Source: an uncultured Lutimaribacter sp. | Lineage (GTDB): Bacteria; Pseudomonadota; Alphaproteobacteria; Rhodobacterales; Rhodobacteraceae | Direction of reading: 5' to 3' | NCBI GenBank assembly: GCA_913061505.1 | Contig: CAJXSO010000001.1 | Location: forward strand, 1 to 64,000 | Length of the DNA: 64,000 nt | Shown here: positions 10,782 to 19,745 of the stretch, piece after piece | How the letters are laid out: the number at the start of each line of letters is the position of its first letter | Position numbering within the stretch: the first letter of the stretch is position 1 | Notes under the pieces: model-generated | Seen by the model: the letters and a program-made list of their open reading frames with translations, nothing else | Databases searched by the model: none | Told to the model about the DNA's origin: nothing | Made by a program: the position numbers and the translations under genes

Positions 10782-11924
10782 ATGCGCTACAGCCTGATCG
10801 ATGCCACCGTGCTGGCCCCCACCGGGCCGGGGCCGGGTGCGGTGCATGTCTGCGACGGCACGATCTGCGCCAGCCCCCCTGCCCAAGCCGCGCGTATCTC
10901 GCTGCCGGGCTGCACGGTTTTGCCTGGCATCATCGATGCCCATGGCGATGGTTTCGAGCGGCACATGGCCCCCCGCCGTGGCGCGATGCGCGATTTGGGC
11001 CAGGGCCTATCAGCCACCGAGGCAGAGCTGGCCGCCAATGGCATCACCACCGCCATGCTGGCCCAGTTCTGGAGCTGGGAGGGCGGCATGCGCGCCCCCG
11101 AATTTGCCCAGCGCCTGCTTGCCGCCCACCAGGCCTATGCCGGCCGCGGCACAGATATGCGTATTCAACTGCGCTTTGAAACCCATTTGCTGGATGATTA
11201 CCCAAGCTTTGCCAATGCTGTGCAGGCCTATGGCGTGGGCCAGGTTGTGTTCAACGATCACCTGCCCCATGCCGCGCTGGCCGCAGGCAAGCGCCCCCCC
11301 CGCCTGACAGGCCAAGCCCTGAAAAGCGGCCGCAGCCCCGAGGCGCATTTGGCCCTGCTGCAGGCGCTTTCTGCCCAATCGGCCCGCGTGCCCGCCCAAT
11401 TGGCCCAGCTGGCCGCGCGCCTGTCAGCGGCTGGGGTGATTTTGGGCAGCCATGATGATGCCAGCCCCCAGCGCAGGGCAGAATGGCGCGCCATGGGCGT
11501 GCACCTGTGCGAGTTTCCCGAAACCCACGCCGCCGCCCTGGCCGCGCGGCAGGGGGGCGATGGCATCGTTTTGGGCGCCCCCAATGTGGTGCGGGGCGGG
11601 TCGCATTCCGGCAATGTGGCGGCACAAGATCTGGCCGAGGCAGGCCTGTGCGATGCGCTGGCATCAGATTACCATTACCCCGCGCCGCGGCAGGCCGCGC
11701 TGCAGCTGGCGCCCAAATTGGGCCTTGCGGCGGCTTGGGGCCTGGTTTCAGCCGGGCCTGCACGGCTGCTGGGGCTGCAGGACCGCGGGCAAATTGCGCC
11801 GGGCTTACGCGCCGATCTGGTGGTGCTGGATGCGCGCGGCGATGTCTGCCTGACCATCGCGGCGGGCCTGCCCACCTATGCCACCGGCCAAGGCGCGGCA
11901 GCCCTTTTGGCGGCGCGGGGTTAA
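10782..11924 (+). CDS. PhnM-like amidohydrolase (alkylphosphonate triphosphate diphosphatase family)
   Basis: 380-residue metal-dependent amidohydrolase. PhnM hallmarks are LPGIIDAHGDGFERHMAPR (about residues 45-63), LGSHDDAS, GAPNVVRGGSHSGN and DALASDYHYPAP. PhnM removes diphosphate from ribose-1-methylphosphonate 5-triphosphate in the C-P lyase pathway. No other phn gene is nearby, and the fold closely resembles adenine and cytosine deaminases, so the true substrate is uncertain. Its stop overlaps that of the convergent nitroreductase gene. Confidence 0.85.
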   Translation: MRYSLIDATVLAPTGPGPGAVHVCDGTICASPPAQAARISLPGCTVLPGIIDAHGDGFERHMAPRRGAMRDLGQGLSATEAELAANGITTAMLAQFWSWEGGMRAPEFAQRLLAAHQAYAGRGTDMRIQLRFETHLLDDYPSFANAVQAYGVGQVVFNDHLPHAALAAGKRPPRLTGQALKSGRSPEAHLALLQALSAQSARVPAQLAQLAARLSAAGVILGSHDDASPQRRAEWRAMGVHLCEFPETHAAALAARQGGDGIVLGAPNVVRGGSHSGNVAAQDLAEAGLCDALASDYHYPAPRQAALQLAPKLGLAAAWGLVSAGPARLLGLQDRGQIAPGLRADLVVLDARGDVCLTIAAGLPTYATGQGAAALLAARG

Positions 11925-12634
11925 ACCCAGCGCAACACCTCGTCCAGCCCTGCGCGCGCGGTGCGAAACCCGTTGATTGGGTGGCTTTCATCGGCATAGC
12001 CAAAGGAAATGGCGCAAAGCACCAGCCGCGTGTCGGGCAGGTTGAAATGTGCCCGCACCGCCGGGGCATAGGCGGCAATGGCGGCTTGCGGCACGCAGGC
12101 AACGCCTGCGGCCTGTGCGGCCAGGGTGAAGGCTGCCACAAAGCCGCCGGTATCCATGGCGCCATAGCCGCCCAGATCTGCCTCAGAGGTTATCAGCGCC
12201 ACATGGGGCGCGCCGAAAAAGCGATAATTTTCCAGCATCTGTGCCGCCCGCGCGGCCTTGTCTTCGCGTGCGATGCCCACCGCCTCGTATAATTGAAAGC
12301 CGCAGTCACGGCGGCGCTGTTGGTATGCGCCAGTATAGGCGGCAGGCCATGCGATATCGGGCTGGGGTGGTTTTGTGCCCACTTGCGCCAATAACATCTG
12401 CGAAAACGCCTGGGTTTGGGCAGGCCGTGTCACATGCACCTGCCATGGCTGGGCATTGCACCAGCTGGGCACGCGCCCCGCCACCCGCACGATTTCGGCC
12501 ACCACCTGATCGGGCACCGCATCGGGCAGAAAGGCGCGCGCGCTGTAGCGGCTGTGCAAGATGCGCGACAGGGCGGCGAAATCATCGCCCAAATCCAGGG
12601 TTTCGGTTGGGGTTTGGGTGGCGTTTTCGGTCAT
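11921..12634 (-). CDS. Nitroreductase-family FMN oxidoreductase
   Basis: 237 residues. The N-terminal FMN-binding SRYSARAFLPDAVP (about residues 28-41), the PSWCNAQPWQVHV block and GYGAMDTGGFVAAFTLAAQA place it in the nitroreductase superfamily. It probably reduces nitroaromatics or quinones with NAD(P)H; BluB-type 5,6-dimethylbenzimidazole synthesis is less likely as I do not see the BluB-specific residues. It is convergent with the PhnM-like gene. Confidence 0.9.
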   Translation of the reverse strand: MTENATQTPTETLDLGDDFAALSRILHSRYSARAFLPDAVPDQVVAEIVRVAGRVPSWCNAQPWQVHVTRPAQTQAFSQMLLAQVGTKPPQPDIAWPAAYTGAYQQRRRDCGFQLYEAVGIAREDKAARAAQMLENYRFFGAPHVALITSEADLGGYGAMDTGGFVAAFTLAAQAAGVACVPQAAIAAYAPAVRAHFNLPDTRLVLCAISFGYADESHPINGFRTARAGLDEVLRWV

Positions 12635-12709
12635 CTAAGGTGCTTTCACTCAGGGCGTATTGGGCCCAAGGTATCAAGCCCTGCCCAAAGGTCCAGATGG
12701 CCACTGCCC

Positions 12710-13828
12710 CTAGCCGCCCTGCGCCACGCCATAGCCAACCACCGCCGCCGCAACAGCCCCAAGGCACAGCGCAAAGGCCAGTTTCCAGATCGACCAAGGG
12801 CGCTGCCCCTGCACCCTGCCACTGTGGCCATTGACCACGAATTGATAGGTTTTTCCGCGATATTGATAGGCCGCCACCCAAACCGGCAGCAAAATATGCT
12901 TGAACGTCACATCCGACAGGCGGGTATCGACGTGATCGATCTGTTGGCGGTCGCCGCCAATATCAAAGCGGATGTCACGGGCAATAACAGCCGCCATGTC
13001 TTGGCGCGCCTGCTGAAACGCGGCATCCAGCGGCACCGTATAGGCCTCGGCGCGAAAGCCTGCCAGATAGTGCGGCTGATAGGGCTGCAGGCCCGACAGA
13101 TCCCAGGGCGCCAGCCCTTGCATATGCCCCGCAGGCAAGCCGCCCGAGGCCAGCACCAGCACATCGTCAAAAAACCGCGCCACGCGGCCCGCCACCGGCG
13201 CCCAGCGCACCTTTGGCACCTGGCGCTGCTGGCGCTTGCCATCGATCACCACGCTGCGGGTTTCATAATAAACCGTGCCGCGCTGGCCGCGGTATTGGGT
13301 GTGAGACTGTGCATCAAACGTCCAATATGGCACGTAAAGGCCCTGCATGGCGCGCCCTTTGCGGGCGTAGCGCTGCAGCCCGTTTGGGGCAAACCACAAG
13401 CGCCCCAGCCAGGCAGTCATGGCTGTGCGCGCCGCCTCGTCATCCAGCGCAAAGGGCAACACCGCGCCTGGCTTGATCTGGCGTTTCGTGCCAGTGCCCA
13501 CCACCACGGGCGTGGTGCAAAACGGGCATTCTGCGGCATGGGTGGCGCCGTCAAACACCACATCACCCCCGCAATTGGGGCAATGCGACACGCGCGCCTC
13601 TTGCATGGCATGGCCGGCTAGGTGATCGGGCAGGTGATCGGCCAAGCCGGTTTCAAAGGGTATTTCCGCAACCGCAGCCCCAGCGCCCGCCCGCCCCCAG
13701 GGCCCCGTGCTGGCCAATGGCTGTTGGCTGCCGCAAAACGCGCATAGCAGCGCCCCCGAGGCAGGATCAAAGCGGTAATCGCCCCCACATTGCGCGCAGT
13801 CAAACCGGTGTTCGGCCCCTTGGGGCAT
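12710..13828 (-). CDS. Zinc-ribbon membrane-anchored protein (YdjG-like)
   Basis: 372 residues. The N-terminal zinc ribbon has Cys11, Cys14, Cys29 and Cys32; a second Cys4 ribbon follows (HCPNCGG ... ECPFC). The middle repeats W-x-F/Y-rich strands (LYVPYWTFDAQSHTQY, VWVAAYQYRGKTYQF), and the C-terminal 25 residues form one hydrophobic helix. In Bacillus, YdjG-type zinc-ribbon membrane proteins work with the SPFH protein YdjI and PspA in membrane stress; the neighbouring SPFH gene supports the same pairing here by inference. The ATG at 13828 follows the SPFH stop by one base; a TTG 18 bases upstream is less likely. Confidence 0.75.
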   Translation of the reverse strand: MPQGAEHRFDCAQCGGDYRFDPASGALLCAFCGSQQPLASTGPWGRAGAGAAVAEIPFETGLADHLPDHLAGHAMQEARVSHCPNCGGDVVFDGATHAAECPFCTTPVVVGTGTKRQIKPGAVLPFALDDEAARTAMTAWLGRLWFAPNGLQRYARKGRAMQGLYVPYWTFDAQSHTQYRGQRGTVYYETRSVVIDGKRQQRQVPKVRWAPVAGRVARFFDDVLVLASGGLPAGHMQGLAPWDLSGLQPYQPHYLAGFRAEAYTVPLDAAFQQARQDMAAVIARDIRFDIGGDRQQIDHVDTRLSDVTFKHILLPVWVAAYQYRGKTYQFVVNGHSGRVQGQRPWSIWKLAFALCLGAVAAAVVGYGVAQGG

Positions 13829-13829
13829 G

Positions 13830-14957
13830 TTATGGCGCGTCCCCAATGGGCGGCGGTGGTGGCGGCATCACGGTGAAAAGCTGCGCCAGTTCGGCCACAT
13901 CGCCCGCATGCATCCAGCCATCCTGGCCGGCAGTCCAGACATAGGTTTGCCGGGTCAATCGGCCATCTGTGGCCATGCGCCCCAGCGCCGCTTTGGAAAA
14001 GGGCCCGCTGGTTTGGCCGGCCTCGGCAATGTGCCAGACATGTTCTGATGGCGGCGGGGGCGGTGGGGTGGGGGCGGCTGCGGCAGTGCCAGGCGCCTGC
14101 CCCCAGGGCCCGGCTGCCGCCATGGTTTGCGCCATGCCCATGCCCAGCCCTGCCCCAATGCCCGCGCCCATGGCCGAATTTTGCGCCATAGCAGCCTTGG
14201 TCATGGCCTCGGCGGCGGAATATTGGGTAAACCGCCCCAAATCGCCCGCCATGCCCATCGATGTGCGCTTATCCAGCGCCTCTTCCACGGCGGGGGGCAG
14301 GCTGATGTTTTCGATATAAAGTTCCGGCACGCTAAGCCCGTATTCGGCCACTTTGGGGGCAATTTCAGTGGCCACCAAACGGCCCAGATCGCCGGTATTC
14401 GCGGCCATATCCAAAACCGGTATCCCCGAAGACGCCACAACCCGCGAGAATTCTTGCACCAAGATATTGCGGATCTGAAAGCTGATCTCGTCCATGGTGA
14501 ATTCGCCATCGGTGCCCACGATTTCCGTCAGAAACAGGGCCGGGTTGGTGATGCGCACCCCATAGCTGCCAAAGGCGCGCAGGCGCACCGGCCCAAATTC
14601 GGGATCGCGGCAAATGACCGGGTTTTTCGTGCCCCATTTCAGCCCGGTAAACCGGGTTGTGTTGACAAAATAGATCTCGGATTTGAACGGCGAGCGGAAC
14701 CCGTGATCCCAATGGTTCAAGCTGGTCAAGACCGGCATATTGTTGGTTTCCAGCAGGTAAAGGCCGGGGGTGAAAACATCGGCCAGCTGCCCTTCGTGCA
14801 CAAATAGCGCCGCCTGCCCCTCGCGCACGGTCAGCTTGGCGCCGTATTTTATTTCATGCCCTTCGCGCTGAAACCGCCACACCATCGTATCGCGGCTGTC
14901 ATCCACCCAGTGGATCACATCAATGAACTGGCCCGATAAAAAATCAAAAATCCCCAT
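13830..14957 (-). CDS. SPFH-domain protein with C-terminal GYF_2 domain (YdjI/virion-core-like)
   Basis: 375 residues. The N-terminus MGIFDFLSGQFIDVIHWVDD and the following SPFH region (to about residue 230, including FGSYGVRITNPALF) match the YdjI / 'virion core protein' branch of SPFH proteins. A low-complexity Met/Gly/Ala linker and a proline run lead to a GYF_2-like domain at about 308-357 (WHIAEAGQTSGPFSKAALGR). The protein ends in another proline run. SPFH proteins form membrane-associated scaffolds; GYF_2 domains bind peptides or membrane partners. It is followed after one base by the zinc-ribbon gene. Confidence 0.82.
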   Translation of the reverse strand: MGIFDFLSGQFIDVIHWVDDSRDTMVWRFQREGHEIKYGAKLTVREGQAALFVHEGQLADVFTPGLYLLETNNMPVLTSLNHWDHGFRSPFKSEIYFVNTTRFTGLKWGTKNPVICRDPEFGPVRLRAFGSYGVRITNPALFLTEIVGTDGEFTMDEISFQIRNILVQEFSRVVASSGIPVLDMAANTGDLGRLVATEIAPKVAEYGLSVPELYIENISLPPAVEEALDKRTSMGMAGDLGRFTQYSAAEAMTKAAMAQNSAMGAGIGAGLGMGMAQTMAAAGPWGQAPGTAAAAPTPPPPPPSEHVWHIAEAGQTSGPFSKAALGRMATDGRLTRQTYVWTAGQDGWMHAGDVAELAQLFTVMPPPPPPIGDAP

Positions 14958-15002
14958 AAAACCCCCTGATCTGGCAAACCATGCGCACCAAGCTGGCCGC
15001 GC

Positions 15003-15935
15003 TTACCCCAAACTGCCCACCTTTTCGCGCGCGATGCGCCCCACAATGGGCAAGGCCTGATCGCGCGTGATGCCCGGGCGCAAGCGCGGGTCGTATAACA
15101 TGGCCAACAGCATTTCATCTTGCGTTGTCAGCAATGCAAATTCGTCATCATCATTGAAAATCGAGGGCCGCGCCCGCGGGCTGTCGTTGGCCAGGCCCAA
15201 ACCCTGGGCCAATTCCTCGTGCACGCAGGATTTGCGCATCAAATCGGGGTGCTCGGCGCGAATGATGGCAATGGCACGGGTATAGACGGCATCGTTTTTC
15301 GGGTCGGAAAAGGCCAGCACAAGGCAATGAATGGCGCGCGGCAAGCTGCGCAGCATCGACAGGGTGGCCGGGTTGATATTTGGCTCTAGCTGGCGCACGC
15401 GGGCAATCGTGGCCAGGCGGTCGTCTTCGCTGGCCACCAGCACGTGAAAATTACCCCGCGCGCCGGCGCTAATCGGGTGGCCCGTTACCCGCGCCAAGCG
15501 TTGGGCATATTCACCCACCAGCTGTGTGTCGGCCCGCTGCTGGGCTGCGGGCACGCTGGCGCCAAATTCCACCGTGATACGCACCGGCGCCACCCAGCGG
15601 CGCAGCACACCCGGCTCGGCCCGCGCGCCGATCAGGCCGCGGCCGCGTTCGTATTCATCAAAAAACGCCAGCTGCTCGAAGTTGCGGGCCAGCATTTCAT
15701 CATCAAAGGGCGTATCGGGCCCGCCACCATCGGTGCGCAGCAACCCCTTTGACAGCTGCGTTTCCTGCAGGCGGGCGTAATAGCGCGCCAGGCCCAGGCT
15801 TTGCGCCGAGGGCTGCAGGCCGGCTGCATCATCGGGCGGGGCGGGGCGCTGGCCCATCATGGGCATGCATGCCGACAGCCCCGCCGCCAGCACCGCCCCC
15901 AAGCCAAATTTGCGCGCCCGCGCCCCCCTTTGCAT
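15003..15935 (-). CDS. DUF2927 lipoprotein
   Basis: 310 residues from the ATG at 15935, giving a signal sequence with a good lipobox (LSAC, Cys near residue 23). The DUF2927 core is seen as SCVHEELAQGLGLANDSP, SIFNDDDEFALLT and MLYDPRLRPGI near the C-terminus. The H-E-E-L motif is reminiscent of metalloproteases but is not a proven zinc site. The start lies four bases after the telA stop, so it is co-transcribed. It is probably anchored in the inner or outer membrane facing the periplasm. Confidence 0.82.
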   Translation of the reverse strand: MQRGARARKFGLGAVLAAGLSACMPMMGQRPAPPDDAAGLQPSAQSLGLARYYARLQETQLSKGLLRTDGGGPDTPFDDEMLARNFEQLAFFDEYERGRGLIGARAEPGVLRRWVAPVRITVEFGASVPAAQQRADTQLVGEYAQRLARVTGHPISAGARGNFHVLVASEDDRLATIARVRQLEPNINPATLSMLRSLPRAIHCLVLAFSDPKNDAVYTRAIAIIRAEHPDLMRKSCVHEELAQGLGLANDSPRARPSIFNDDDEFALLTTQDEMLLAMLYDPRLRPGITRDQALPIVGRIAREKVGSLG

Positions 15936-15939
15936 GGCC

Positions 15940-17139
15940 CTACGCCCCCGGCACTGCGCGGCCCGCAGTATCGCCCACACCATCGCGGCGGGCGCGCGCA
16001 GAGGCCAAAGTGCTGCGCAATTCCGCCTCCATTTTCTTTAACTCGCCCTCGGCTTCGGCGCGGCGGCGCTTGCCCTCGTCAGCGATTTGCAGCGAATCCT
16101 CGATCGTACCGATCAGCGCGGCATTGGCCTGTTTGACCGCCTCGATATCGAAGACACCGCGCTCCATTTCTTCGCGGATCTTGCGGTTGCTGTCGCGCAG
16201 GTTTTGGGCGTTGGCCTGCAGCAATTCGTTGGTCAGGTTATTGGCATCGCGCACGGCTGCCGCGGCCTCGGCGCTGCGCTGAATGGTGACGGCCTGCGCC
16301 AGCTGGGTTTCCCACAAGGGCACGGTGTTCACCAGGGTCGAGTTGATCTTTGTCACCAGGCTTTTGTCGTTTTCCTGCACCAGGCGGATCGATGGCAGCG
16401 ATTGCATCGTGACTTGCCGGGTCAGTTTCAGATCATGCACCCGGCGTTCCAGATCATCGCGGGCGGCGCGCAAATCGCGCAGCTCTTGGGCCACAATCAC
16501 CTGGCCCTCTTCGGGGGTGGCCTGCAATTGCGCCTCTTTGGCGGGAATGTCCGTGCTGTCTAATTCTGCCAGTTTGGCCTGCCCCGCGGCGATGTAAAGC
16601 GCCAGCTCGTCGTAAAAGGCCAAGGTTTTTTCGTAGAGCATATCCAGCGATTTGATGTCTTTGAGCAGCTTATGCTCGTGTTCCAGCAAATCGCTGGTGA
16701 TGCGGTCGATTTGGCCCTGAACCTGTTCAAACCGGGCGGCGAATTTGGCGAAAGGCGCCGCACGGCCGATCAGCTTTTCCCACCACGAGCGTTTGCGCCG
16801 CACGTCCAGTTCGCTGACAGAAAAGCCGCGGATGGTGCTGACCATGGTGCGCAGGCTGTCGCCCGCAGGGCCCACATCTTTGTTGCGCACATCGGCCAGC
16901 ATGGCCTGGCTGATGGTTTGCAATTCCGCCTGCGCGGCCGAGCCGAAAGACACGATCGAGTTGGTATCGCCCATATCGATTTCAGCCATGCGGCGCTGAA
17001 TTTCGGCGCTGGCCTGCGGATCGGCCTGTTCAAGGGGCACGATGGCTGTGGCCTCTGCCGGTTCGGGCAGAATGGCCGCGCTTACCTGTTCGACCTCGGC
17101 CAAAACTTGCTGTGCCTTCATTTGAATTTCAGATGCCAT
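15940..17139 (-). CDS. telA: Toxic anion resistance protein TelA/KlaA family
   Basis: 399 residues, mostly alpha-helical and charged, with the family segments MGDTNSIVSFGSAAQ, LDVRRKRSWWEKLIG (about residues 112-126), EHEHKLLKDIKSLDMLYEKT and LPSIRLVQENDKSLV. TelA proteins are linked to tellurite, bacteriocin and envelope-stress resistance, but their biochemistry is unresolved. A purine-rich AGGGGGT lies just before the ATG. It is preceded by xpaC, the usual partner, and followed by the DUF2927 gene. Confidence 0.9.
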   Translation of the reverse strand: MASEIQMKAQQVLAEVEQVSAAILPEPAEATAIVPLEQADPQASAEIQRRMAEIDMGDTNSIVSFGSAAQAELQTISQAMLADVRNKDVGPAGDSLRTMVSTIRGFSVSELDVRRKRSWWEKLIGRAAPFAKFAARFEQVQGQIDRITSDLLEHEHKLLKDIKSLDMLYEKTLAFYDELALYIAAGQAKLAELDSTDIPAKEAQLQATPEEGQVIVAQELRDLRAARDDLERRVHDLKLTRQVTMQSLPSIRLVQENDKSLVTKINSTLVNTVPLWETQLAQAVTIQRSAEAAAAVRDANNLTNELLQANAQNLRDSNRKIREEMERGVFDIEAVKQANAALIGTIEDSLQIADEGKRRRAEAEGELKKMEAELRSTLASARARRDGVGDTAGRAVPGA

Positions 17140-17155
17140 ATTTACCCCCTGATCC

Positions 17156-18037
17156 TTACTCTAACCGCACGCCTTCACGCTGCAAACGCGCGCGCAAAAC
17201 CTCTATTTCCACTGTCAAATCCGCATGATCGGCCAAAAGCAGCTTTTGGGTTTTGGCGTCGAAACCCGCCTCGAGATCGCTCAAAAGCTGCATGAAATCG
17301 GGCTTGGCCGGGCCATCTGCGTGGCGCTGGTGCAAATCGGCAAATTTTTGCGCCGCATCGCGCGCGCCCATCAGATAAACGCCCAGATATTTCCGCGCCG
17401 CGCTTAAATCGCGGGGGTCGTCCTGCACCGTTTGCAGCATTTGCCCAACCACCGCTTGAAAACTGCGCATCTGCGCCATCACCTGCGGGTCGCCGGCACG
17501 CTGCACCGCCTGGGCCATCTGGCTTAGGTAGGCCTCGGCCTCGGCCACCGCGTGTTCGGCGCGTTGGGCCTGAAAGGCGCCCACCTCGTCAAAGCCTTTG
17601 CTGCGCAGGGGATCGAGCCCAAAAGACAGGCTGTGCAGCACCGCCCCCAAGCCCCCCGACAGCGCAGCACCCATGGCCCCAAAAGCGAAATAGCCCGCCA
17701 GCCCCAGCGCCAGGCCAGTCAGGACGCTGGCAAATATCTTGCGCGGTATGGCCGGGCGGCGCGCCAGTTTGCGCGCCTCATAAGCCGCGTGTGCCCGCAC
17801 GCCTTCGCGCGTCAGCCAAGCCGCCAAAACCAGCAAGAGCGCCGCCACCAACATGCCAAAAAACTGTGCAGGCGGGCCAAAATACCCCTTTGCCAGCAGC
17901 AAAACTGGCCAGAAAAACAGCAGGTTTACCCGCGCCCCCACCGGGCTGCGCTGCAATCTGCCCCGCGGCGCGCCTGCAGCGGCGCTGGCCTGGCCTGCCC
18001 CGCCGGGGCTGAATTGGCCACCAAATCGCTTGGCCAT
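17156..18037 (-). CDS. xpaC: XpaC-like 5-bromo-4-chloroindolyl phosphate hydrolysis family membrane protein
   Basis: 293 residues. A basic N-terminus leads to two hydrophobic segments (about residues 36-55 and 58-76), and a third glycine-rich segment spans about 105-130. The C-terminal cytoplasmic domain has DPLRSKGFDEVGAF and SAARKYLGVYLMGARDAAQKFADL, typical of the XpaC family found next to telA. The family's hydrolase name comes from an indirect phenotype, so a catalytic role should not be assumed. It is probably a membrane partner of TelA. Confidence 0.85.
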   Translation of the reverse strand: MAKRFGGQFSPGGAGQASAAAGAPRGRLQRSPVGARVNLLFFWPVLLLAKGYFGPPAQFFGMLVAALLLVLAAWLTREGVRAHAAYEARKLARRPAIPRKIFASVLTGLALGLAGYFAFGAMGAALSGGLGAVLHSLSFGLDPLRSKGFDEVGAFQAQRAEHAVAEAEAYLSQMAQAVQRAGDPQVMAQMRSFQAVVGQMLQTVQDDPRDLSAARKYLGVYLMGARDAAQKFADLHQRHADGPAKPDFMQLLSDLEAGFDAKTQKLLLADHADLTVEIEVLRARLQREGVRLE

Positions 18038-18038
18038 G

Positions 18039-18122
18039 CTAAAGCCCCCCTGCTGTGACGATATAGAATATCAACAGCACCAGCCCGGCATATGCCCATT
18101 TTTGCAGCCCAGAACCCGACAT
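18039..18122 (-). CDS. 27-residue single-pass membrane peptide
   Basis: A short frame reads MSGSGLQKWAYAGL then VLLIFYIVTAGGL, 27 residues, with one hydrophobic helix from about residue 9 to 25. Its TAG stop is one base from the xpaC ATG, so if translated it would couple to xpaC. A GGGG run about 5 bases upstream is a weak ribosome site. Codon choice is consistent with neighbours. I do not recognise a family; it could be a small regulatory membrane protein of the TelA/XpaC cluster or a leader peptide. Confidence 0.5.
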   Translation of the reverse strand: MSGSGLQKWAYAGLVLLIFYIVTAGGL

Positions 18123-18138
18123 GCGCCCCAACACGTTT

Positions 18139-18159
18139 ACCTACCGGTAAAAGGTAGGT
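18139..18159. promoter_or_regulatory. Inverted repeat upstream of the telA cluster
   Basis: ACCTACC (18139-18145) and GGTAGGT (18153-18159) form a perfect 7-bp inverted repeat with a 7-base centre that itself begins GGT. No T-run follows on either strand, so an operator in the promoter of the minus-strand cluster is more likely than a terminator. Confidence 0.45.
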
Positions 18160-18216
18160 GATTGGCCGCGCTGTTACTAGGGGGAAGCGGCGCAAATCGG
18201 CGTCAAAGCGTGAAAA

Positions 18217-19221
18217 TCAGCGCTTTGGGCGCGGGCCACGGGGCTTGCCCTGTGCAGGCGATGGCCCGGCCTTGCCGGGGCCGGCCGGTTTGGCGCCCGT
18301 GCCCCCCTTGGCGCTGCGCCCCCGTGGCTTTGGGGTGAAACCCGCGGCAAAGCCCGGGTCGCTGCGCGGCGTGCGGGCCGGGCGGCTGATGCTGCGCGGT
18401 TTGGCACCAGGTTTCGCTGCAGGTTTCGCACCAGATTTCACAGCGGGTTTCTTGCCCGCAGGCTTTTCAACCTCATCTGGCTGCGCATCGTTCAGGCCCA
18501 ATTGGTCGCGCAGCACGCGGCGGCGCACCTCTTCTACTTGGCCGGGTTTCAACTGGCCCAGCTGGAACGGCCCGTAAGAGACGCGGATCAGCCTGTTCAC
18601 CGTTAGGCCAACGGCCTCCATCGCGCGGCGAATCTCGCGGTTTTTGCCCTCGCGCAGGCCGATGGTAAGCCAGGCATTGGCGCCTTGCTGGCGATCCAGT
18701 GTTACGCTCATGGGTTGAAATTTCTCGCCCTCAATCTCGATCCCCTGGCGCAGGGGTGCCAGGCGGGCATCATCGGGGCGGCCATTCACGCGCACGCGGT
18801 ATTTGCGCAACCAGCCGGTCGAGGGCAGTTCCAACTGGCGTTTGAGCGCGCCATCATTGGTCAGCAGCAGCAACCCTTCGGAATTCAGATCAAGCCGCCC
18901 CACGCTCATCACCCGCGGCATTTCGGGGGGCAAGGCATCGTAAATTGTGGCGCGGCCCTGCTCGTCGCGGGTGGTTGTGACCAGGCCCGTGGGCTTGTGA
19001 TACAGCCACAGGCGCGCGGGTTCGGGCGCGGACAGGGGTGTGCCATCTACGGTGATGCGGTCCTTTGGGCCCACATTCAGCGCGGCGCGCTCGATCACCT
19101 TGCCATTCACAGCCACGCGGCCAGCGGCAATCAGCGCCTCGGCTTCGCGGCGGCTGGCGCGCCCTGAACGGGCAATAACTTTGGCGATACGCTCGCCTGC
19201 GGGGTGCGACTCTGTGCTCAT
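18217..19221 (-). CDS. rluB: 23S rRNA pseudouridine synthase, RluB-type
   Basis: 334 residues. An S4 RNA-binding domain lies at about residues 9-55 (RIAKVIARSGRASRREAEAL). The catalytic domain follows, with VGRLDLNSEGLLLLTNDG (catalytic Asp in GRLD) and the RluB/RsuA motif REGKNREIRRAM. After about residue 245 comes a long Lys/Pro/Ala-rich disordered tail (repeats of KPAAKPGAKP type), common in alphaproteobacterial RluB. The ATG at 19221 begins MSTESHPAGERIAKV; codons further upstream look non-coding. Confidence 0.93.
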   Translation of the reverse strand: MSTESHPAGERIAKVIARSGRASRREAEALIAAGRVAVNGKVIERAALNVGPKDRITVDGTPLSAPEPARLWLYHKPTGLVTTTRDEQGRATIYDALPPEMPRVMSVGRLDLNSEGLLLLTNDGALKRQLELPSTGWLRKYRVRVNGRPDDARLAPLRQGIEIEGEKFQPMSVTLDRQQGANAWLTIGLREGKNREIRRAMEAVGLTVNRLIRVSYGPFQLGQLKPGQVEEVRRRVLRDQLGLNDAQPDEVEKPAGKKPAVKSGAKPAAKPGAKPRSISRPARTPRSDPGFAAGFTPKPRGRSAKGGTGAKPAGPGKAGPSPAQGKPRGPRPKR

Positions 19222-19283
19222 GGGGCGGGTATGCCTGAAACGCGAGGCTTGCGAAAGCAAAGATCAACGGGCATCACAGCACA

Positions 19284-19745
19284 ATGCACAGCACGCACAG
19301 CACCAGCCCCATGGAACTGGCCCTTGCCGAGGCCCAAGCCGCCGCCACCCGCGGCGAGGTGCCCGTGGGCGCAGTGATCGTTTCGCCCGGGGGGCAGGTT
19401 GTGGCGCAGGCCGGCAACCGCACCCGCGAATTAAACGACCCCACCGCCCATGCCGAGGTGCTGGCCATCCGTGCCGCCTGCGCGCAGCTGGGCCAAGAGC
19501 GGCTGGCAGGGCATGCGCTCTATGTGACGCTAGAGCCCTGCCCAATGTGTGCAGCGGCCATTTCTTTTGCCCGTATCGCCCGGCTGTATTATGGCGCAAG
19601 CGATCCCAAATCGGGTGGGGTGGCGCAAGGCGCGCGGGTGTTTTCGCACCCCCAATGCCACCACCGCCCCGAAATTTACGATGGGCTGGCCGCGCGCGAC
19701 GCCGAGGCGCTGCTGCGCGATTTTTTCGCCGCGCGCCGCTCTTAA
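19284..19745 (+). CDS. tadA: tRNA-specific adenosine deaminase
   Basis: 153 residues; converts A34 to inosine in tRNA-Arg(ACG). The zinc site is His56-Ala-Glu58 in NDPTAHAEVLAIR and Cys86/Cys89 in LEPCPMCAAA. The C-terminal half has ARLYYGASDPKSGGVAQGARVF. The first ATG is at 19284; an ATG nine codons later (MELALAEAQ) also fits. It is divergent from rluB and convergent with the UPF0173 gene four bases away. Confidence 0.96.
   Translation: MHSTHSTSPMELALAEAQAAATRGEVPVGAVIVSPGGQVVAQAGNRTRELNDPTAHAEVLAIRAACAQLGQERLAGHALYVTLEPCPMCAAAISFARIARLYYGASDPKSGGVAQGARVFSHPQCHHRPEIYDGLAARDAEALLRDFFAARRS

Follow-up and report, generated by a model that had tools for sequence, protein, structure and literature searches.

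The TelA and XpaC families owe their names to tellurite and indicator-dye phenotypes, and we know of no agreed mechanism for either protein. Published links to envelope stress come from Gram-positive bacteria, in which the two genes are adjacent and in the same order (lmo1966-lmo1967 in Listeria, llmg_1115-1116 in Lactococcus). In Lactococcus lactis, the CesSR envelope-stress regulon includes xpaC and telA1, which are upregulated 10.3- and 3.44-fold upon membrane protein overproduction (PMC3139573), with further hints in PMC7864038; in Listeria, a mutant of lmo1967 (telA) is 4-fold more sensitive to nisin and 2-fold more sensitive to tellurite (Collins 2010, as told in PMC12791056). A second membrane-stress module is known from the pspA-ydjGHI operon of Bacillus subtilis, where YdjG and YdjH are required for membrane localization of PspA and of the SPFH protein YdjI (PMC8581546). 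Ravi et al. place PspA in contexts with band-7 proteins, zinc ribbons and TPM domains; a search of its text for “tellur” gave no match (PMC11237479). Judged by gene content, these two modules, XpaC–TelA and SPFH–zinc ribbon, are joined in an operon of an uncultured Lutimaribacter sp. (Rhodobacteraceae, Alphaproteobacteria), found in the first 64,000 nucleotides (nt) of contig CAJXSO010000001.1 (assembly GCA_913061505.1), the stretch analyzed here and called the window. The operon occupies positions 18122–12710 of the minus strand and holds, in order of transcription:

18039..18122, minus strand: single-pass membrane microprotein, 27 amino acids (aa), first gene of the operon, with 1 nt between its stop codon and the XpaC ATG
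17156..18037, minus strand: XpaC (PF10112), 293 aa, Pfam score 80.3 bits (cut-off 29.8)
15940..17139, minus strand: TelA (PF05816), 399 aa, Pfam score 351.3 bits (cut-off 30)
15003..15935, minus strand: DUF2927 lipoprotein (PF11150), 310 aa, lipobox LSAC, Pfam score 209.5 bits (cut-off 26.2)
13830..14957, minus strand: SPFH protein (PF13421, Band_7_1; 324.3 bits, cut-off 24) with a C-terminal GYF_2 domain (72 bits, cut-off 25.8) and a proline-rich tail, 375 aa, identified by Pfam
12710..13828, minus strand: double zinc-ribbon protein, 372 aa, CxxC pairs at 11, 29, 83 and 101, hydrophobic segment at 350-368

The operon is real, strongly conserved, and more coherent than a first reading could show. 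Positions of the open reading frames (ORFs) and Pfam matches bear out what an earlier note on this DNA had described, namely five genes and a small membrane ORF packed head to tail. The intergenic gaps, 5' to 3', are 1, 16, 4, 45, and 1 nt; with such short spacing, the six genes resemble one transcript. XpaC and TelA form the same adjacent pair as in Gram-positive bacteria, 16 nt apart, and XpaC has two clear hydrophobic segments, both in its N-terminal half (57-75 and 101-119). The zinc-ribbon protein falls below every Pfam cut-off (TFIIB zinc ribbon, 20.7 bits against 29) and owes its identification to the four CxxC pairs, the one C-terminal hydrophobic segment, and its homologues. The DUF2927 gene is taken to start at the ATG at 15935, which corrects the longer ORF starting at 15983. 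The two membrane-stress modules were each known separately; new are the microprotein, a candidate fold and pseudo-active site for DUF2927, and the joining of the modules, for which no paper was found in the open-licence PubMed Central (PMC) literature (titles and abstract starts of the papers listed). The same literature yielded none on toxic anion resistance together with SPFH, or on an XpaC product name together with toxic anion resistance.

How widely is this arrangement conserved? TelA is present in 174 of 198 Rhodobacteraceae genomes; in a sample of the class, it scores above the cut-off in just 17 of 190 genomes, three of which are themselves Rhodobacteraceae. We annotated 143 loci (141 distinct): 60 from the 174 TelA-positive genomes, mostly high scorers, 2 from family members of the class sample, 80 named loci, and the window. 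The named loci are the best 80 of a scan of genome contigs, with titles of Rhodobacteraceae genera or of unnamed Rhodobacterales or Alphaproteobacteria bins; one record titled Enemella is taken as mislabelled. The earlier note had set a survey of telA neighborhoods as a check on its proposal, with rare co-occurrence as the result that would count against it; all five larger genes stand together in 121 of the 141 distinct loci, and this clustering is far above chance. Among the 20 incomplete loci, the zinc-ribbon gene alone is missing in 9, SPFH and zinc-ribbon genes in 5, DUF2927 alone in 2, DUF2927 with SPFH and zinc-ribbon genes in 2, and XpaC in 2; at least 9 of the 20 end at a contig edge. 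Gaps, computed from expected protein lengths and hence approximate, with some loci of other families included, are at most 100 nt for 148/151 XpaC–TelA, 135/139 TelA–DUF2927, 107/134 DUF2927–SPFH, and 47/130 SPFH–zinc-ribbon pairs; the last gap exceeds 300 nt in 71 of 130 pairs. In 28 of these 130 pairs a related ORF, one of a cluster of 28, lies between the SPFH and zinc-ribbon genes; none is present in the window, and the copy scanned matches cytochrome b561 (PF01292, 36.6 bits, cut-off 30.1; e.g., L055:11442-11996). A divergent second XpaC gene precedes the main one in 16 of the 80 named loci (e.g., L136, L139, L143, and L148).

Gene content and order are thus matched by joint presence and absence, which can be followed in the genome sequences of 48 Rhodobacteraceae: 24 TelA-positive genomes, chosen from the top of the list with less complete ones skipped, and 24 TelA-negative genomes, 20 taken from the listing and four (G357, G360, G364, and G383) assigned by elimination. 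A strong SPFH match is found in 24/24 TelA-positive vs. 1/24 TelA-negative genomes (Fisher p = 1.6e-12, kinship ignored); the lone exception, G307, is 78% complete and has its match near a contig edge, and two further TelA-negative genomes have weak matches only. XpaC scores above the cut-off in 24/24 vs. 0/24, one negative genome showing a weak match. Could this reflect mere inertia of linked genes? In G207, the SPFH, DUF2927, and zinc-ribbon genes lie 37 kb away from TelA; G193 has its SPFH and zinc-ribbon genes on a different contig; in G212 and G292, XpaC is distant from TelA. These genomes retain the members although the cluster has broken up, which inertia of linked genes does not explain.

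The smallest member is conserved, too. A hydrophobic ORF, mostly of 27–29 aa, stands directly before the XpaC start, or overlaps it, in 102 of the 103 loci in which this start fits a strict pattern, vs. 199 of 2340 control starts; under a looser rule, which omits 11 of the 141 loci because the start is not placed or XpaC is missing, the counts are 129/130 vs. 252/2335. Control starts are ATG-started frames of 250–900 codons on either strand, not checked as genes, and one of the 129 looser matches (L187) is a wrong pick, its proper ORF being caught by the strict rule. No Pfam family matches the microprotein, whose consensus is roughly M-S-x-x-G-L-Q-K-x-A-[FY]-x-x-L-...-G-G-x; its pN/pS (nonsynonymous to synonymous differences) is 0.37 for 27-mers and 0.48 for 29-mers, with pS near saturation. 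In L090, L097, L113, and L127, it is longer and carries an SC motif. Is it a leader peptide of the operon? The microprotein is clear before XpaC in both loci where XpaC is remote from TelA (L279 in G292 and L280 in G212), and no ORF of this type precedes TelA in two clusters that lack XpaC (L123 and that of a Paracoccus plasmid, the latter with one hydrophobic 44-aa frame unlike the microprotein). Because it follows XpaC to remote sites and is lacking before TelA where XpaC is lacking, the microprotein seems to partner XpaC and not to act as a leader. Many loci (e.g., L091, L112, and L128) have another small membrane ORF, its core resembling PMSKTTFYFSVVVLVAVEIIQSGYSRKL, ~270–400 nt upstream of XpaC; none with this core is listed upstream of XpaC in the window.

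Each of the two modules is also found alone, and some relatives carry both with fewer additions. In other alphaproteobacterial families, four loci (L053, L054, L056, and L064) have XpaC–TelA–SPFH–zinc ribbon in the absence of DUF2927; a fifth (L066) lacks SPFH and has a DUF2927 gene on the strand opposite to TelA, at a distance of 5 kb. In a tree that included 12 family sequences, the TelAs of the four joined clusters and the 12 family TelAs fall into one clade with 100/100 support; the TelA of L064 sits on a long branch, and the clade also holds L008, whose contig is too short to tell, and L058. This topology fits a single joining of the modules before Rhodobacteraceae arose; alternatively, the joined cluster may have been transferred between families. 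Like the pair studied here, SPFH genes of Pseudomonadota outside the family have a zinc-ribbon profile match beside them in 17 of 20 loci (9 above 300 bits, 8 weak at 16-33 bits); they differ in their company and in the C-terminal domain of the SPFH protein, which is GYF_2, HTH_17, SHOCT, or a double zinc ribbon in the four proteins scanned (among L240, L247, L255, L257, and L258), as if the SPFH platform swaps adaptors. One of these 20 genomes, G012, has TelA elsewhere. Spermine-synthase (L255 and L257) and LPG-synthase-type (L240) genes are neighbors of outside-family SPFH genes. A look for TelA in viral contigs gave 119 pattern matches, none confirmed.

The earlier note had assigned the SPFH and zinc-ribbon proteins to the PspA system. 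At the level of domains the comparison with the B. subtilis partners holds: the SPFH protein is of the same Pfam family, PF13421, which is also detected in the B. subtilis control (the identity of YdjI is taken from papers), and, as with YdjG, a membrane protein with two zinc ribbons stands beside it, a likeness of architecture. The partner these proteins would serve is another matter. PspA (PF04012) has no match in the genome of the window (99.46% complete), in a search that was positive in 9 of 14 controls, and XpaC, TelA, DUF2927, and the microprotein are added. No TPM domain of the YdjH type was matched among the cluster proteins scanned, the only part of the genome searched for it. The Bacillus SPFH protein, called YdjL in that source, is described as ending in a zinc ribbon (PMC11237479), whereas the one here ends in GYF; a search for a solved relative of the latter gave a single weak match (E 0.0037), confined to the GYF part. 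Since PspA was not found in the genome, the operon is not simply the PspA system of a Gram-negative bacterium. Across the family, PspA exceeds the cut-off in 35 of 198 genomes.

What kind of protein is TelA? Hydropathy reveals no hydrophobic segment, and an AlphaFold model, made from 58 of 80 TelA copies plus that of the window, is all-helical, with very long helices at 129-207, 248-307, and 332-385. Its mean predicted local distance difference test score (pLDDT) is 67 and its predicted TM-score (pTM) 0.52, the low pLDDT probably because the alignment held close relatives (76-84% identity). In a VIA structure comparison, rows 1-16 are helical pore-forming toxins (Z 15.2-10.9), which we take to be of the ClyA type; later rows contain BAR domains, designed bundles, and others. 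Helical models with no clear match typically reach Z 14, so this likeness is only a lead, as is the observation that many structural neighbors of the model act on membranes. The best Foldseek match has E 0.013, and a search for a solved TelA relative gave chance helical matches only (E 0.05 and worse). No PspA-like or ESCRT-III structure is among the rows shown for the model, which does not amount to an exclusion.

For the DUF2927 lipoprotein the model is firmer (pLDDT 88.3, pTM 0.83). It was built from 48 sequences (47 plus that of the window), drawn from the 48 copies among the 80 loci that have a placed start and a lipobox. All 50 rows listed by VIA-align are matrix metalloproteinases or karilysin (Z 9.8-10.8, 142-154 residues), the best being 2y6d (Z 10.8, root-mean-square deviation 2.8, 146 residues aligned); Foldseek also ranks a matrixin first, in a list that mixes matrixins, other metzincins, and unrelated folds and has no match with E <= 0.001. 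A search for a solved relative of DUF2927 gave no match, and no paper on the family was found in the open-licence PMC literature. The predicted fold is thus that of matrixins with the zinc ligands replaced. Matrixins bind zinc through HExxHxxGxxH and have a Met-turn methionine, whereas the active-site helix here reads C-x-H-E-E-x-A-Q-G-x-G-L-x-N-D, followed by P-S-I-F-N-D-D: by our reading, E240, Q244, and N250 occupy the positions of the three zinc-binding histidines, and a phenylalanine that of the Met-turn methionine. E240, E241, Q244, and D251 are invariant in 48/48 copies, and residue 250 is N in 45 and D in 3. The pattern EExxQxxGxx[N/D] replaces the zinc-binding signature in every one of the 48 copies from clusters and in all 16 stretches that hold further copies, taken from 15 genomes; in other copies of the family (L264-L268) the EExxQxxGxxND site recurs with slightly different surroundings. 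Such strict conservation suggests that the site is in use, though not as that of a classical zinc protease, and the protein probably binds rather than cuts.

The region upstream of the operon contains one element of possible regulatory interest:

18151..18186, minus strand: bipartite promoter-like element, TTCCCCCTAGTAAC ... CCTANNTT, starting 64 nt upstream of the microprotein ATG

In 102 upstream regions, the enriched k-mers are TTCCCCCTAGCAAG and then CCTAxxTT, 23 nt on from the CCTA of TTCCCCCTAGCAAG. A matrix for the first part, trained on the same 102 regions on which it was counted, matches in 71 of them, with 53 of these 71 matches located 52-73 nt upstream of the microprotein ATG. Searched exactly, the two-part pattern has a single match in the 3.0-Mb genome of the window, at the operon; in 24 genomes, partly picked for the motif, it has 11 matches, 7 of them at the operon, and the reversed control pattern has 12. 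The element is no more than suggestive; the distance between its halves would be compatible with a -35/-10 pair or with a direct repeat. An inverted repeat between the element and the microprotein, ACCTACC-TTTTACC-GGTAGGT (18139-18159), was rejected as a conserved site: the TACC-N-GGTA dyad is found in 3 of 102 upstream regions, with 0.4 expected. An Rfam scan of 11500-19500 gave no match above the gathering score. The neighbors are a nitroreductase gene 75 nt downstream and, upstream, an RluB-type gene and a tadA-like gene.

What might these proteins do together? From the company the genes keep and from their Gram-positive relatives, we infer a role in membrane stress, along with a complex and an order of recruitment; we see an even chance that the products of the operon make up one membrane-protection system that works at the cytoplasmic membrane without PspA. 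Under such a model, (i) the SPFH–GYF protein and the zinc-ribbon membrane protein would form a recruiting platform, like that of YdjI and YdjG/H for PspA in B. subtilis; (ii) XpaC and the microprotein would be another unit in the membrane, one that retains TelA or controls it; (iii) TelA would be a soluble long-helix protein acting at the inner face of the damaged membrane; and (iv) the DUF2927 lipoprotein would be a periplasmic add-on of Rhodobacteraceae, a protein of matrixin fold with replaced zinc ligands that probably serves for binding and not for cleavage.

Several observations weigh against a single system. No phenotype, interaction, or expression data were found for alphaproteobacterial copies. 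None of the 20 SPFH stretches fetched from outside the family holds TelA or XpaC; conversely, the genes listed in a 6.9-kb stretch of Listeria include XpaC–TelA but none for SPFH, zinc ribbon, or DUF2927. Each module being found alone, neither needs the other in general. Even within the TelA clade, L058 has no SPFH gene in its 17-kb stretch, and other DNA often separates SPFH from the zinc-ribbon gene. DUF2927, which the earlier note had included in the complex, is not supported as a core part: it is multi-copy and present in 15/24 TelA-negative as well as 24/24 TelA-positive genomes, and hence not tied to the system, and the four joined clusters from other families lack it. A straightforward replacement of PspA by TelA, which would leave a trace as mutual exclusion, found no support: PspA is found in 32/174 TelA-positive vs. 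3/24 TelA-negative genomes (p = 0.58), neither enriched nor depleted, with no anti-correlation.

These facts lend themselves to a different account, in which two independent membrane-stress pairs, microprotein–XpaC–TelA and SPFH–zinc ribbon, share a promoter for the same stress and form no joint complex. The solitary occurrence of SPFH–zinc ribbon in the 20 outside stretches (with a zinc-ribbon match in 17) and of XpaC–TelA in Listeria, the separation of the halves without loss in G207 and G193, and the approximate count of 71/130 SPFH–zinc-ribbon gaps above 300 nt all speak for it; the near-perfect joint presence and absence in 48 genomes, by contrast, exceeds what shared regulation needs, and we hold this account to be possible but rather doubtful. 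A bolder version of the single-system model makes TelA itself a PspA-like membrane scaffold, recruited by SPFH–zinc ribbon and anchored by XpaC and the microprotein, with the protease-derived pseudo-enzyme lipoprotein reporting from the periplasm; it is improbable. We think it very improbable that the operon, in place of a stress role, organizes membrane proteins or respiration, a function put forward for SPFH proteins of the HflKC type: HflKC is tied to respiration (PMC12005517) and b561-like genes can lie between SPFH and zinc ribbon, but a gene of this type is lacking in most of the 130 pairs and in the window, and those relatives for which there are data respond to envelope stress. Finally, a tellurite or toxic-oxyanion resistance operon, as the name of TelA would have it, with the other genes as accessories, is also very improbable, although in Lactococcus cremoris reduced amounts of proteins called TelA, TelB, TelC, and ORF53 accompany tellurite sensitivity (PMC13109727; that TelA may be of another Pfam family) and the Listeria telA mutant is affected likewise, because presence in nearly the whole family suits a general function more than defense against a rare poison, the conserved set has no reductase or transporter, and the effect in Listeria is larger for nisin (PMC12791056).

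To return to a single PspA-independent system at the cytoplasmic membrane, joint inheritance ties TelA and XpaC, proteins named for phenotypes, to a known membrane-recruitment platform in a family where PspA is uncommon, and makes their function directly testable. The operon also adds a conserved membrane protein of fewer than 30 residues, as the probable partner of XpaC, and a candidate fold for DUF2927. If the scaffold version were true, TelA would represent a second, ESCRT-III-independent way to build a bacterial membrane-repair coat.

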